Positions 45,044 to 49,589 of a stretch of DNA of 64,000 nucleotides are shown here, piece after piece; the stretch's first letter is position 1, and each line of letters begins with the position of its first letter. The stretch is from Pseudomonas hormoni (GTDB lineage: Bacteria; Pseudomonadota; Gammaproteobacteria; Pseudomonadales; Pseudomonadaceae). The position numbers and the translations under genes were made by a program. The notes under the pieces are model-generated. The model made no database searches, was not told the origin of the DNA, and was given only the letters and a program-made list of their open reading frames with translations. Where the stretch lies: positions 67,001 through 131,000 of the forward strand of contig NZ_CP075566.1 in NCBI RefSeq assembly GCF_018502625.1, read 5' to 3'.

Positions 45044-45574
45044 CTAGCTTTTGACATAGGTGGCTACCGACTTGCGAATCTGTTCCCTCGCCTCATCTGC
45101 GCTCCCCCAGCGGCCCATCTTCACCCACTTGCCCGGCTCCAACACTCTGGAGTTTTCGAAATAATGCTGGATCTGGGCGAGCAGTAGTACGGGAAGGTCT
45201 TCCCATTCCTTCACGTTGCTGTAAAAGGCGCTAAGCTTCTCGTGCGGTACCGCTATTATATTGGCTCCCGGGCCGGTTTCGTCCGTTGTGTACATAACAC
45301 CAACTGGTCGACTGCGAACAACTACGCCAAGCGATACTGGGTAAGGGCAAATCACCAGTACGTCCAGAGGATCGCCATCATCACATAGCGTATTTGGAAT
45401 AAATCCGTAGTACGCTGGATACAGCGTTGCTGTACTGAGGAAGCGTTCGACGAAAATCTGCCCACTTAGTTTATCCACCTCGTAATTAACTGGAGAATGG
45501 TTTGCAGGGATATCAATGACCGTAAAAAAATCATCGGGAATTTCGTTACCTGCTGAAAAATCTTCATAACTCAT
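45044..45574 (-). CDS. inorganic pyrophosphatase paralogue, altered active site
   Basis: A 176-residue family I inorganic pyrophosphatase by fold: IDIPANHSPVNYEVDK, FVERFLSTATLYPAYYGFIP and the signature DGDPLDVLV. Aligned by eye to E. coli PPase, several catalytic positions are changed: Glu20 to Asp21, Lys29 to Asn30, Asp102 to Gly103, Lys104 to Asn105, Tyr141 to Ser142 and Lys142 to Arg143. The Arg43, Asp65, Asp67, Asp70 and Asp97 equivalents remain. It may be inactive, slow, or specific for another phosphate. It lies 26 bp downstream of the small acidic-protein gene on the same strand, so the two are probably co-transcribed. Confidence 0.85.
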   Translation of the reverse strand: MSYEDFSAGNEIPDDFFTVIDIPANHSPVNYEVDKLSGQIFVERFLSTATLYPAYYGFIPNTLCDDGDPLDVLVICPYPVSLGVVVRSRPVGVMYTTDETGPGANIIAVPHEKLSAFYSNVKEWEDLPVLLLAQIQHYFENSRVLEPGKWVKMGRWGSADEAREQIRKSVATYVKS

Positions 45575-45600: not shown

Positions 45601-45897
45601 CTACCCATTAATCCCATTCAGTTTGCAATACTCCTCCCACTCCATTTCTACCATTTCTGCCACCTCTCGATGAAACTCCAGGGTCAAATTTTTCAGTTCT
45701 TCGGGCGACTCTGAAATCAATGTAAGCGTCAGCTCCCATACCTCGACCCCCAGCCGCATGGCCTCTTGTTCAAAGGCCGACTCGATGCAGAATTTTTTAT
45801 CGTCCGGACTCAGTCCTTGGACGGCGTCGTTGAGTGATGAGTCGCCATTGAAGAACTTCGACAGCGCTAATTCTCTTCGCAAGTCATCCGAGTTCAT
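45601..45897 (-). CDS. small acidic protein, DUF6388-like
   Basis: A 98-residue, Glu-rich, mostly helical cytoplasmic protein without signal or membrane segment. The pattern VEVWELTLTLISESPEELKNL and the C-terminal REVAEMVEMEWEEYCKLN resemble small Pseudomonas proteins I recall as DUF6388; this is not verified. Function is unknown. It is 26 bp upstream of the pyrophosphatase paralogue and probably in one operon with it. Confidence 0.75.
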   Translation of the reverse strand: MNSDDLRRELALSKFFNGDSSLNDAVQGLSPDDKKFCIESAFEQEAMRLGVEVWELTLTLISESPEELKNLTLEFHREVAEMVEMEWEEYCKLNGING

Positions 45898-45963: not shown

Positions 45964-47172
45964 TCATGCAATCTCCGGCTCATCGAACCAACCGCGGATC
46001 GTTTGGTAAAAAAACAGATGCATTGTGTCCCACCAACGTTTCCACCAAACACCCAGTTCACCGTCTTCAAGTGCTACCAGTGGTAGGCTGCCCAGTTTTT
46101 GCTCAGCATCGTACAGATCCAGTCTTCCAACGACGGTGCCAGCAGAGATAGGCGCTTCAAGTGGTCCGTCAATCTCCAGACGTGTCTCTACTTCACGATT
46201 TTCATTCTTGGGTAATGTGAGGGTCATATCGTCCAACAATCCCAAGGCGATCAATCGTTCTTTGCCCTTCCAGAGTGCAGACCAAGTGAGTATTTCCCCT
46301 GCTTTTTTGTAGGTTTGGGTGTCGTAGAAGCGAAAACCATAGCCCATGAGCTTTTCCGTCTCTGCCGTGCGTTTATGCGCGCTGCTGGCGCCAAATATCA
46401 CACTGATCAAGCGTCGCCCAGCTCGGTGCGACGAAGCCACCATGCAATAACCAGCGGCCTCAGTATGGCCAGTCTTCAATCCGTCAAAGCTTGAGTCGCG
46501 CCATAAAAGTAGATTGCGGTTGGCTTGCCGAATGCCGTTCCAAGAAAAGTGTTTTTTGGAGTAAAGCGCGTAAGAGTCAGCCCCTTGGCTGATGATTGCC
46601 CGCGCCAACAAAGCCATATCGCGGGCAGATGAATAATGCTCTGGGTCAGGCAGCCCGGTGGAATTCACAAAGTGCGTGTTACTCATGCCGAATACAGATG
46701 CAGTCGAATTCATCATCCCGACGAAGGCGCCCTCACTTCCAGCCACATGTTCGGCGAGTGCAACGCTTGCGTCGTTACCAGAGTCAATGATCACACCGCT
46801 CAGCAAGTCGTGAACAGAAACCGAACTGCCCGGGTCGAGAAACATTCGTGAGCCACCCGTGCGCCAGGCGTTTTCGCTAATAGAGACGCTGTCATCATCT
46901 TTCATGCGCCCGGCCTTGATCTCACGTGTGGCGACAAACGCCGTCATCATTTTTGTCAGGCTTGCAGGAGGTAGTCGCTTATCGCTGTTGTGACTGGTAA
47001 TGACGCTTCCCGTAGCCGCGTCGATCAGAATCCAGGCTTTAGCCCCGAGTTTTGGCGCGGCGGGGATCATCGCTCTTGGCGCGTTAGTTTCAGCCAGCGC
47101 ATGGTTAGCGAAGACTACAGGCATCGTTAGACAGAACACGGTTAGCAAAAGCGGGGACAACAGGTATTTCAC
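45964..47172 (-). CDS. D-alanyl-D-alanine carboxypeptidase (PBP5/6 type)
   Basis: A 402-residue low-molecular-weight penicillin-binding protein (peptidase S11) that trims the terminal D-Ala from peptidoglycan stem peptides in the periplasm. A signal peptide (1-27) precedes the catalytic motifs S71-L-T-K74, S131-G-N133 and K233-T-G235. The C-terminal PBP5 domain ends in an aromatic amphipathic helix (WWKRWWDTMHLFFYQTIRGW) for membrane anchoring. The start is GTG at 47172 with a weak ribosome site. It lies directly downstream of the histidine kinase gene but has its own promoter with a response-regulator-like box. Confidence 0.93.
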   Translation of the reverse strand: MKYLLSPLLLTVFCLTMPVVFANHALAETNAPRAMIPAAPKLGAKAWILIDAATGSVITSHNSDKRLPPASLTKMMTAFVATREIKAGRMKDDDSVSISENAWRTGGSRMFLDPGSSVSVHDLLSGVIIDSGNDASVALAEHVAGSEGAFVGMMNSTASVFGMSNTHFVNSTGLPDPEHYSSARDMALLARAIISQGADSYALYSKKHFSWNGIRQANRNLLLWRDSSFDGLKTGHTEAAGYCMVASSHRAGRRLISVIFGASSAHKRTAETEKLMGYGFRFYDTQTYKKAGEILTWSALWKGKERLIALGLLDDMTLTLPKNENREVETRLEIDGPLEAPISAGTVVGRLDLYDAEQKLGSLPLVALEDGELGVWWKRWWDTMHLFFYQTIRGWFDEPEIA

Positions 47173-47207: not shown

Positions 47208-47253
47208 AAGCTAGCCCTCAGGGCGTCGAGCCTCAAAATTAAGCTGGATTAAG
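47208..47253 (-). promoter_or_regulatory. promoter of the carboxypeptidase gene with tandem CTTAAT box
   Basis: On the minus strand CTTAAT-N4-CTTAAT (47253-47238) is followed after one base by TTGAGG (-35, 47236-47231), 17 bp, and TAGCTT (-10, 47213-47208). The predicted start of transcription is about 30 bp upstream of the GTG. The same geometry occurs at the small-ORF promoter near 49440. Confidence 0.6.
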
Positions 47254-47289
47254 TTAAATTTAATGTGCAGGTATCGATAGATCCGCAAA

Positions 47290-48675
47290 TCAACCGGAAA
47301 CCGTCGGGCAGATAATCAAGACACGGGTACCGCTATGCATAGCGGCAGGCTGAATATCCAACGTATAGCCGTGCAATTTCACGATGGCCGCGACCAGGGA
47401 TAATCCGAGGCCATGGCCGGGTTGCATTCTGCTAGCGTCCCCTCGGTAGAGCCTGCGAATGACGTGTGTACGGTCTGTCTCGGGTATGCCAGTGCCATCG
47501 TCAGCAACTTCAACGATGACCGTTGAATCCTTGATACTTCCCCGCAATTTGATGTGCCCTCCCTCCGGGGTGAATTTGATGGCGTTATCGAGCAGGTTGA
47601 CCAAGGCTTCAAACATCAACGAAGAGTCGCCATACAGTTGAGGCAGGATATTGGTAATTTCCAGAGAGAGCGTCTGAGAGCGGTCGAGTGCCAAAGGCTC
47701 ATAAAATTCATGCGCTTGCTGTAACAGCGCCATAATTTTGAAAGGTGCAAATGCCGAGCGGCGACGAATGTCGTCGAGTTCAGCAACCCGAAGCAATCCT
47801 TGAAAACGCACCATGATCGATTCGCTTTCCTCAAGGGCTTGGTTCAAAATTTGCTCGTGATCGTTGTCCATAGGCAGTTGCTGGAGCTGATAAAGCCTTG
47901 CACGCAGCCGTGTTAGTGGCGTACGCAAATCGTGAGCGACACCATCACAAACGGTTTTGACCTCATGCATCAGTTGCTCGATATGATCGAGCATCGTGTT
48001 CACGGCATTTGCCAGCATATCCAATTCATCGCGACGGGCGGATAAGGGTAAACGCTCCGACAAGTTGCCTGAAACGATGCTCTCGGTACAAAGCTGTAGG
48101 CGTTTGACACGGCGTAAGGGCAGACGCCGCAACAAGTGCCAACCAATCAATCCGGGGATGAGTGTTAACGAAAATCCCCACATCAATGCCTGCTCAATAA
48201 TCCCGCCAACGGCTAAAATCGAGCCGCCGTCACGCGCCAGAATAAGAATATGCCCGTCGGGACGGCGTGCTAACAGGGCATAACTGCTTCTGGTTTCTTT
48301 GTCAGGTAACGCAATGCTCAGTCCGCGCTCAAGATAATGAACCTTGCCATCATCAGGCAAACTGGAGCGCAGTTTGAGCAGGTCTCCTGCAACGTGTTGT
48401 CCGTCGGAAGTGAACAATCCGTAAGCATCGATCCCGGGCGTTGAGTAGGCTTCACTGGCAGCCAGTTCTTTCACCAGTTTTTTGTCATCGATTTTTTGAT
48501 AGTAGTGGGCACGCTGCAATAATGTCCGCTCTGCAACGGTGCCCAGGTAGTGGGAGATTTCCCAGTACAACACGCCGGTGAAGAGTGCCCCCCAAACCAC
48601 AAAAAACATGGCGTAGAACCCGATCAATCGACTACCGGATGAGCGCCACTCCTCAGTTTTTGGTAGCAAGGACAT
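47290..48675 (-). CDS. two-component sensor histidine kinase
   Basis: A 461-residue inner-membrane kinase. TM1 is near 17-38 and TM2 near 153-180, with a periplasmic sensor of about 110 residues between them. A HAMP region (RRVKRLQLCTESIVSGNLSERL) leads to the HisKA domain with H248 in AHDLRTPLTRL. The ATPase domain has N box LVNLLDNAIKF, G1 DDGTGIP and G2 GHGLGLSLV. It begins inside the end of the response-regulator gene (23-bp overlap), so the pair is coupled. The ligand is unknown. Confidence 0.93.
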   Translation of the reverse strand: MSLLPKTEEWRSSGSRLIGFYAMFFVVWGALFTGVLYWEISHYLGTVAERTLLQRAHYYQKIDDKKLVKELAASEAYSTPGIDAYGLFTSDGQHVAGDLLKLRSSLPDDGKVHYLERGLSIALPDKETRSSYALLARRPDGHILILARDGGSILAVGGIIEQALMWGFSLTLIPGLIGWHLLRRLPLRRVKRLQLCTESIVSGNLSERLPLSARRDELDMLANAVNTMLDHIEQLMHEVKTVCDGVAHDLRTPLTRLRARLYQLQQLPMDNDHEQILNQALEESESIMVRFQGLLRVAELDDIRRRSAFAPFKIMALLQQAHEFYEPLALDRSQTLSLEITNILPQLYGDSSLMFEALVNLLDNAIKFTPEGGHIKLRGSIKDSTVIVEVADDGTGIPETDRTHVIRRLYRGDASRMQPGHGLGLSLVAAIVKLHGYTLDIQPAAMHSGTRVLIICPTVSG

Positions 48676-49333
48676 AGCCGGCACCGCGTATTGTATGAAT
48701 GACGGGGGTGCCTTCGTCGCCTTCAAGCTTTTTGCGCAGCCGACCAATGTGAACATCGATGATGTTCGTCCCAGGATCGAAGTGATAACCCCAGACCTCT
48801 TCAAACAGCATGGTCCGAGTGACCAACTGTCCGGCACTGCGCATCAGGTAATTGAGCAGCTTGAACTCGGTCGGTAGCAGCAGAATGTGTTCATCATTTC
48901 GAGTCAGTTTGTGTTCGACCAGATCCAATCGCAGGTTTCCGCAACAAAGTTGCGGATGGCCTGCGTCTACACTGGTGCGCCTAAGCAATGCGTCAAGACG
49001 CGCAACCATCTCGATAGCAGAAAAGGGTTTGGTCAGATAATCATCGCCGCCCGCACGCAGACCCTGAACGCGCTCATCGACGTCTGAAAGTGCACTGATC
49101 ATCAGGACAGGTGTTTGAATCCCAAGACTACGCAACGTACTGACAATGGTTAGGCCATCAAAATCGGGAAGCATTCGATCCAGGGTAATGGCGTCATAAC
49201 CTCCCGCAATCGCCAGTGCTAATCCGTCGCGTCCAGTTGCGGCCCATTTCGCACTGAAACCATGGCGTTGGAGTTCAGTGATGATGACTTCCGCCGTCAC
49301 CTTGTCGTCCTCTATGACCAATGCGCAATTCAT
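48653..49333 (-). CDS. OmpR-family response regulator
   Basis: A 226-residue regulator. The receiver domain (1-120) has the acidic pair E8-D9-D10, phospho-acceptor D52 in ITLDRMLPDFDG, and the Lys in GGDDYLTKPF. The winged-helix output domain (about 130-224) has LLPTEFKLLNYLMRSAGQLVTR and IDVHIGRLRKKL. OmpR-type regulators bind tandem half-sites with a 10-11 bp period; matching boxes lie at 49432 and 47238. It is the first gene of the kinase operon, after GGAGGAAGG. Confidence 0.95.
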   Translation of the reverse strand: MNCALVIEDDKVTAEVIITELQRHGFSAKWAATGRDGLALAIAGGYDAITLDRMLPDFDGLTIVSTLRSLGIQTPVLMISALSDVDERVQGLRAGGDDYLTKPFSAIEMVARLDALLRRTSVDAGHPQLCCGNLRLDLVEHKLTRNDEHILLLPTEFKLLNYLMRSAGQLVTRTMLFEEVWGYHFDPGTNIIDVHIGRLRKKLEGDEGTPVIHTIRGAGYVLATKN

Positions 49334-49422
49334 ACCTTCCTCCGCTTCAGCCTGCTCTTAGCGCTTGCGACTCAATGCCGCCTTGGCAGGTCCACCTTAG
49401 TGACCAGCGCAGCGGCCGAAGA

Positions 49423-49476
49423 TTAAATTTTCTTAACCCACCTTAACCTTGATGCATGCCAAAGCACCGATATATT
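49423..49476 (+). promoter_or_regulatory. tandem CTTAAC box and promoter of the 24-residue ORF
   Basis: TTAA recurs at 49423, 49433 and 49443, an exact 10-bp period; the last two form CTTAAC-N4-CTTAAC (49432-49447). One base later comes TTGATG (-35, 49449-49454), 16 bp, and TATATT (-10, 49471-49476). The box directly abuts the -35 as expected for class II activation. It lies 99 bp upstream of the divergent response-regulator gene, so autoregulation is also possible. Confidence 0.65.
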
Positions 49477-49514
49477 CGAAAACTGATGCGCTCCGCACCG
49501 AGAGGAGGGAAAAC

Positions 49515-49589
49515 ATGACCCCTTATTTGGCGTTCTTTTTGTTAGCCTTTGGTTTGATGTGTACCTACGCAAGTTGGGTCACTGCATGA
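49515..49589 (+). CDS. 24-residue single-span membrane microprotein
   Basis: A 24-codon ORF, too short for standard gene calling. It begins MTPYLAFFLLAFGLM and ends CTYASWVTA; residues 3-20 form one hydrophobic helix. It has a near-ideal ribosome site, GGAGG six bases before the ATG, and a good promoter about 40 bp upstream with the tandem CTTAAC box. It is divergent from the response-regulator gene. Tiny inner-membrane proteins beside two-component systems (for example MgrB, made under PhoP control) can tune the sensor kinase; that role here is inference only. Confidence 0.6.
   Translation: MTPYLAFFLLAFGLMCTYASWVTA

Follow-up and report, generated by a model that had tools for sequence, protein, structure and literature searches.

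What might a two-component system control when the same short repeat stands on both sides of its operon? The question arises in a 64,000-nucleotide (nt) stretch of Pseudomonas hormoni DNA (assembly GCF_018502625.1, contig NZ_CP075566.1, positions 67,001 to 131,000 of the forward strand), which we call the window. Here the gene for a 226-residue response regulator of the OmpR/PhoB family (48653..49333, reverse strand; Pfam Response_reg and Trans_reg_C) is followed by that for a 461-residue sensor histidine kinase (47290..48675, reverse strand; Pfam HATPase_c and HAMP above cut-off). On the same strand, 117 nt beyond the end of the kinase gene, lies the gene for a 402-residue PBP5-type (peptidase S11) D-Ala-D-Ala carboxypeptidase (45964..47172, reverse strand; GTG start; PF00768 and PF07943). 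On the other side, 181 nt from the regulator start codon and divergent from it, is a 24-codon open reading frame (ORF; 49515..49589, forward strand; ATG start) whose product, MTPYLAFFLLAFGLMCTYASWVTA, is a predicted small membrane protein. The comparisons described below lead us to favor, with good confidence, a dedicated local OmpR-type regulon, in which the carboxypeptidase and a lineage-specific envelope partner would come under one element of three half-sites.

The repeat, CTTAAY-N4-CTTAAY, occurs as CTTAACCCACCTTAAC at 49432-49447 on the forward strand and as CTTAATCCAGCTTAAT at 47253-47238 on the reverse strand. An earlier, sequence-only reading of the window had pointed to these two boxes and to their position around an OmpR-family regulator and kinase operon. 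Both points are confirmed, the second by Pfam and sequence alike, and the boxes prove to be the sole exact copies in the 6,481,491-base genome; the same pattern read backward occurs once. With one mismatch allowed, the genome holds 13 sites, compared with 43 for the backward-read pattern, so there is no wider excess, nor is the exact pair simply the best-matching end of a motif that is frequent in the genome. A third, distal half-site, TTAAA, lies 10 or 11 bp upstream at each box and is kept in relatives. The complete operator thus extends over 47238..47268 (reverse strand; TTAAAT, CTTAAT, CTTAAT) at the carboxypeptidase promoter and over 49417..49447 (forward strand; ATTAAA, CTTAAC, CTTAAC) at the divergent promoter. 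A 31-bp matrix, described below, scored above 8 at only these two places in the 64-kb window (46.9 for the carboxypeptidase operator, which is in the training set, and 19.3 for the divergent one); two shuffled windows gave one such place (8.2). A wider regulon was rejected, as 11 one-mismatch sites in the genome score 7.6 or less with the full matrix, a result that leaves room for other weak site forms.

Relatives of the system were collected by a scan of a contig collection. This gave 48 loci, 47 of them orthologues; the other, L095 (27% identity, unrelated), was dropped before counts were made. In the 47 orthologous loci, 46 titled Pseudomonas and one titled 'gamma proteobacterium L18', the kinase is 63-97% identical in its best segment. 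Our working set comprised 60 loci: the window, L048-L094 and 12 further loci. Within it, regulator and kinase are identical in L115 and L061, L117 and L065, L120 and L069, L121 and L067, and L124 and L076; L004, L005, L007, L110, L113 and L114 were left out because matching rows were already present. The order regulator, kinase, carboxypeptidase is kept in at least 52 of the 60 loci, with the carboxypeptidase less than 200 nt from the kinase match, or in 47 of 55 without the identical copies. At L089 the larger distance (355) is artefactual, because the kinase match stops short; the element and promoter are visible there.

When aligned on the -35 sequence, 52 carboxypeptidase promoters carry TTAAA(t/c), then a CTTAAY-like and then an STTAAT-like half-site. 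The matrix, made from 34 distinct 31-mers of carboxypeptidase promoters, was run over the divergent region of each of the 60 loci, a match being a score above the 99% shuffle level. It found the element in all 54 distinct divergent regions, compared with 3 for the reversed matrix and 2 for the opposite strand. Training outside the window's branch recovered 17 of 17 elements inside it (reversed matrix, 0; opposite strand, 1), and training inside the branch recovered 37 of 37 outside it (4 and 3). The conserved, shared element therefore lends strong support to the local regulon that the sequence-only reading had put forward, the basis of that support being sequence comparison.

The P. oryzihabitans branch provides a further line of evidence. 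At its carboxypeptidase promoter, both proximal half-sites read TTCA in six of six examined (L088 and L089 fall outside the 200-nt rule and hence are not among the six), and at its divergent element the middle half-site is TTCA in eight of eight. In the other branches, TTAA occupies both proximal half-sites of 43 of 46 carboxypeptidase promoters, with TTCA in one half-site of three and in both half-sites of none; their middle divergent half-site is TTAA in 52 of 52, counting the ATTTAA of the amidase loci. Because the same half-site change struck both promoters, it points to one shared regulator that reads both.

Could the boxes instead be operators of another regulator, such as PmrA, BqsR or a widespread paralogue, that stand here by chance? 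We regard this as very unlikely. It is true that the half-sites resemble those of PmrA and BqsR. PmrAB boxes are also direct repeats of TTAA half-sites, and the likeness to a PmrA box noted earlier holds for the half-site; it fails for the spacing, which is N5 in the available part of a report on PmrA (PMC10927774). The window has N4 and a distal third half-site, and identity with that form of the PmrA box was rejected. BqsRS (CarRS) offers a Pseudomonas regulator that activates from TTAA direct repeats, with one pentamer overlapping the RNA polymerase site; the accessible text of that study gives the box as TTAAG-N6-TTAAG, with a period of 11, and 432 candidates in P. aeruginosa at up to two mutations (PMC4682146). 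The window pairs, TTAAC-N5-TTAAC and TTAAT-N5-TTAAT, with two exact sites in the genome, do not match the BqsR box as that text describes it. A site of true BqsR form does lie elsewhere in the genome: the best one-mismatch site (L103, G000:C1:4219481-4219496) has three TTAA half-sites and on its reverse strand reads TTAAG-N6-TTAAG, upstream of an ORF for a 102-residue, secreted-looking protein. This suggests that L103 is a BqsR-type box belonging to a separate BqsR-type circuit; bqsP encodes a PepSY-like protein.

The regulator itself has a PF00072 receiver and a PF00486 winged-helix C-terminal domain above cut-off, as befits the OmpR/PhoB family. Identity as PmrA, QseB or CreB was rejected from the NCBIfam equivalogs (166.7, 162.1 and 133.9 bits against 330, 345 and 273), and its score for the heavy-metal cztR/silR/copR family, 204.2 bits, is below the TIGR01387 cut-off of 279.2. 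The kinase likewise reaches 163.9 bits with TIGR01386, for which the cut-off is 292.55.

The paralogue deserves separate attention. The window's genome contains a second kinase, 47% identical (G000:C1:3104083-3105447, L044), with a regulator of its own, and kinase matches, whether orthologues or paralogues, reach E 1e-60 or better in 120 of 149 genomes, most at 45-50% identity. Upstream of the paralogue's regulator gene, the promoters share another, distinct element (24 loci inspected). To this we can add a survey of exact boxes in 24 Pseudomonas genomes, 10 with the orthologous kinase (broken in G135 and G030) and 14 without it. In the kinase genomes there are 13 exact boxes, of which 10 lie at this locus, and in the kinase-less genomes there are 4, none near the paralogue; the backward-read control gave 9 and 13 in the same groups. 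With another element at its own promoters and no exact box nearby, the paralogue was rejected as the controller of the window boxes.

Several observations weigh against a dedicated local regulon with a shared operator, or limit its reach. Over the 24 genomes, exact boxes number 17 against 22 for the backward-read control, so that position alone is special, and two of the ten kinase genomes (G086 and G051) lack an exact box; their elements are degenerate (L008 and L010, which are loci L066 and L073). The change from TTAA to TTCA is one event in one lineage, three carboxypeptidase promoters outside the P. oryzihabitans branch have TTCA in one half-site, and at L119 the last divergent half-site is TTCAC, a position outside our count, which covered the middle half-site. 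In some loci with an intact kinase and a retained divergent element, the carboxypeptidase is displaced, by 417 nt in L084 and 1412 nt in L088, or was not found within the fetched stretch (L073, L079 and L122). The recognition helix of the regulator is nearly identical in the widespread paralogue, and cross-binding by the latter is therefore possible. Finally, it is the position of the element, by itself, that suggests activation rather than repression.

That position is the same at both promoters. As proposed earlier and confirmed in the sequence, one base separates each box from a predicted -35 hexamer, and some 30 nt lie between each expected transcription start and its start codon (ATG at 49515, GTG at 47172). 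The small ORF has a predicted -35 TTGATG at 49449-49454 and a -10 TATATT at 49471-49476 (forward strand), found by a promoter scan that reports consensus match only and marked by a conserved -10. The carboxypeptidase gene has a predicted -35 TTGAGG at 47236-47231 and -10 TAGCTT at 47213-47208 (reverse strand), read from the sequence and not listed by the plain promoter scan; TTGAG and a CTAGsTT-like -10 recur in most of the 52 aligned promoters. Because the plain sigma-70 scan of the region gave fewer sites than shuffles (2 promoter-like sites against a shuffle mean of 4.5) and detected the small-ORF promoter alone, both promoters rest on conservation. In 20 of 20 rows, counting duplicates, the small-ORF -10 is TATATT or TACATT at 22-23 nt from the box; the -35 hexamer varies and is poor in several relatives. 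This combination of a constant -10 distance and a poor -35 fits activator-dependent, class-II activation. In the textbook layout for class-II activation, an OmpR-type activator sits head-to-tail next to the -35, on direct repeats with a period close to one helical turn.

From the genes, the element, its conservation and the selection on the small ORF described below, all of which are read from sequence, we infer the binding, the activation, the stimulus and the role of the small protein as follows. A periplasmic or membrane stimulus would activate the kinase. The phosphorylated regulator would bind head-to-tail to an element abutting the -35 region (TTAAA, 10-11 bp further along CTTAAY, and after N4 a second CTTAAY; TTCA in one branch) and recruit RNA polymerase class-II style at two promoters. 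One target would be the gene next after the kinase, for the extra PBP5-type D,D-carboxypeptidase, and the other an envelope gene in the divergent slot, which by branch would encode a small protein, a periplasmic solute-binding protein or a cell-wall amidase. Such a circuit would probably change how peptidoglycan is trimmed under stress, the small protein serving as a partner in the membrane.

The carboxypeptidase is a well-supported member of its family. It matches PF00768 at E 2.1e-85 and PF07943 at 1e-17, and contains an S11 domain with SLTK (SxxK), SGN (SxN) and KTG motifs and a C-terminal PBP5_C domain, as do PBP5/DacC-type enzymes. What sets it apart from those enzymes is that it is an additional copy, linked with a two-component system dedicated to it. 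The window's genome has three S11 genes, and one of the others is 63% identical over 229 catalytic-domain residues; since the carboxypeptidase is thus a second PBP5-type enzyme, the response of the regulon probably adds trimming capacity.

What stands in the divergent slot depends on the branch. We built a tree of the loci by a quick method and labeled the divergent genes from tblastn and from Pfam searches on three slot proteins; the slot gene follows the tree branches. Within the window's branch, 15 of 17 loci have the small ORF there. Four loci of a sister branch (L122 among them) have an AMIN/Amidase_3 protein, and 39 of the 60 loci (34 of 55 without identical copies) have an SBP_bac_11 periplasmic binding protein, which is in pieces in L064. 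The comparison with other Pseudomonas genomes suggested by the sequence-only reading thus had a divided outcome: the boxes are present in all branches, and the 24-codon ORF is kept in the window's branch and absent elsewhere. Because the binding protein fills the other three main branches, it is the most parsimonious candidate for the ancestral occupant; the order of those three branches is not settled. No SBP_bac_11 homologue was found in the window's genome at E 1e-10, and 7 of 13 genomes searched have one.

Of 23 rows of the window's branch, duplicates included, 20 have the small ORF, and their copies represent 15 distinct alleles of 72 nt; that of L057 comes from the allele search, having been overlooked by tblastn. 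The ORF is absent from L060 and from L004 and L053, two rows for one genome, all with the box kept. In L060 (P. antarctica) the box and -10 remain, the ORF is gone and other genes follow closely, perhaps a natural deletion. In 396 Pseudomonas genomes the ORF was seen in nine, always 0.8-0.95 kb from the kinase start, although distant relatives may escape a 24-residue query. The window's branch contributes ten genomes to the kinase survey, nine with the small ORF and a tenth (G105) without it.

Is the small ORF translated? That its transcript is instead a small RNA or a leader seems extremely improbable. Such an explanation would suit the very short length of the ORF, but in codons 2-19 of the 15 alleles the proportion of synonymous differences (pS) is 0.57 and that of nonsynonymous differences (pN) 0.09, a ratio of 0.16. 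Because the search pattern for alleles already prescribed the residues at codons 2 and 4-10, pN is depressed in that part; in codons 11-19, outside the fixed pattern, pN/pS is 0.24. Third positions are favored (permutation P 0.0022, with relatedness ignored), start codons exchange between ATG and GTG, and the frame is open for at least 20 codons in all 15 alleles. The genes downstream also differ among loci, which argues against a leader of one gene. A Shine-Dalgarno-like AGGAGGG precedes the window's ORF (49503..49509, forward strand), and the corresponding region is purine-rich in related rows and weak in L111. Overall, the small ORF appears to be under selection as a protein and looks translated.

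The product has 20-33 residues, or 52 in one allele, with no Pfam or NCBIfam match. Its conserved part is a membrane segment, TxYLAFxLLxF; the C-terminal tail varies in length and charge, with 2-34 residues after residue 18, and there is at most one cysteine, which is not invariant. A fair comparison, drawn in the sequence-only reading, is with MgrB of the enterobacterial PhoPQ system, which is likewise a small inner-membrane protein within an OmpR-family two-component regulon. By this analogy the small protein might be a negative-feedback inhibitor that is produced once the regulator is active, contacts the transmembrane helices of the kinase and damps it, a role that we consider rather unlikely. 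It lies beside the system, is very probably controlled by it and in the 396 genomes was seen beside this kinase only. Its conserved part, moreover, is a membrane segment, and in the parts of the MgrB study available to us the N-terminal and transmembrane fragment of MgrB contacts PhoQ (PMC8404706). The same passages report that this fragment failed to inhibit PhoQ and that the transmembrane and periplasmic parts were both required (PMC8404706); MgrB itself, as far as the consulted portions of two reports go, is 47 residues long and depends on a periplasmic part and on two cysteines (PMC2789325, PMC8404706). The window protein, by contrast, has no conserved periplasmic part, no cysteine pair and no visible likeness in sequence; membership of the MgrB family, as those portions define it, was rejected on length, periplasmic region and cysteine pair. 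The loci that keep the box without the ORF (L053 and L060), and the unrelated genes that fill the slot in other branches, also speak against this role.

A second possibility, which we hold tentatively and which takes all its candidates together, is that the small protein acts in the envelope as an effector, or as a partner for a different membrane enzyme or transporter such as the carboxypeptidase, rather than regulating the kinase. The other occupants of the slot, binding protein and amidase, are envelope proteins by family, and the carboxypeptidase is membrane-associated by family through its PBP5_C domain, presumably by anchoring. Against this, the carboxypeptidase is kept in most loci without the small ORF, and the evidence singles out no one partner. 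The kinase is the best single candidate partner, with a likelihood well below even. A more speculative idea, which we think improbable, is that the slot accepts interchangeable proteins for tuning the kinase: the binding protein of most branches, a soluble co-sensor, would have been exchanged in the window's branch for a self-contained transmembrane peptide of about 24 residues. If true, this would make the peptides a new family of kinase modulators, very short ones that do the same job from within the membrane.

Whatever the small protein does, an OmpR-type envelope regulon with a small protein is a known kind of system, and one parallel is CreBC/BlrAB with CreD. As described in the accessible part of the source, that system shares an OmpR-type regulator, a connection with cell-wall stress and a tandem tag before a membrane-protein gene beside the operon; the tag is TTCACN6TTCAC (PMC4689548), to which the half-site with TTCA in the P. 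oryzihabitans branch is similar. The period is 10 here and 11 there in that text, and the third half-site and the carboxypeptidase target are features of the present system. Identity with the cre/blr tag as given there was rejected, since the window half-sites are TTAA with a 10-bp period and the TTCA branch also has a 10-bp period. In the open-licence literature we recognised no description of this combination of a three-part operator with a 10-bp core and changing cargo.

The locus thus presents a compact circuit, with one regulator, two promoters and four genes, for switching on a second PBP5-type carboxypeptidase, and it isolates the control of such an enzyme, a question easily lost within large stress regulons. 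It also brings to light very small membrane proteins, a family linked to a single kinase. Because a conserved operator carries lineage-dependent cargo, the role of the slot is open to comparison of natural variants.

The kinase comprises two transmembrane helices, a PAS/PDC-like periplasmic domain, HAMP, an HDLRTPL phosphoacceptor motif and an HATPase domain; its HisKA match is below the Pfam cut-off (23.2 against 26.9 bits). AlphaFold gave a poor model of the full-length protein (pLDDT, predicted local distance difference test, 59.7), and for residues 1-185 a model of helices and a PAS/PDC-like sheet (mean pLDDT 74.7). The sensor fold had no match in the PDB at E 0.001, the best being the extracytoplasmic domain of WalK at 0.012. 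We assign the sensor domain as PAS/PDC-like with moderate confidence, from the model.

The kinase was found at E 1e-195 or better in 23 of 398 Pseudomonas genomes, implying that the system is accessory. Some copies are damaged. In L090 (P. mandelii OWC5) the kinase is interrupted by transposase-like ORFs and in L091 it ends at a contig edge; in the same assemblies, a C-terminal kinase piece lies beside a carboxypeptidase on another contig (L043 and L042). The kinase match of L123 (G386:C12:167742-169106) contains one in-frame TGA. In Pseudomonas sp. JAI120 the system is present twice, with one copy from the small-ORF branch and the other from the binding-protein branch (L059 and L062; G278 is possibly the same strain).

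Directly 3' of the carboxypeptidase gene, after a gap of 66 nt, is a gene for a DUF6388 protein (45601-45897, reverse strand; Pfam), followed after 26 nt by one for inorganic pyrophosphatase (45044-45574, reverse strand; Pfam). The order carboxypeptidase, DUF6388, pyrophosphatase is the same in L048, L049 and L052, and these two genes may extend the regulated carboxypeptidase operon.

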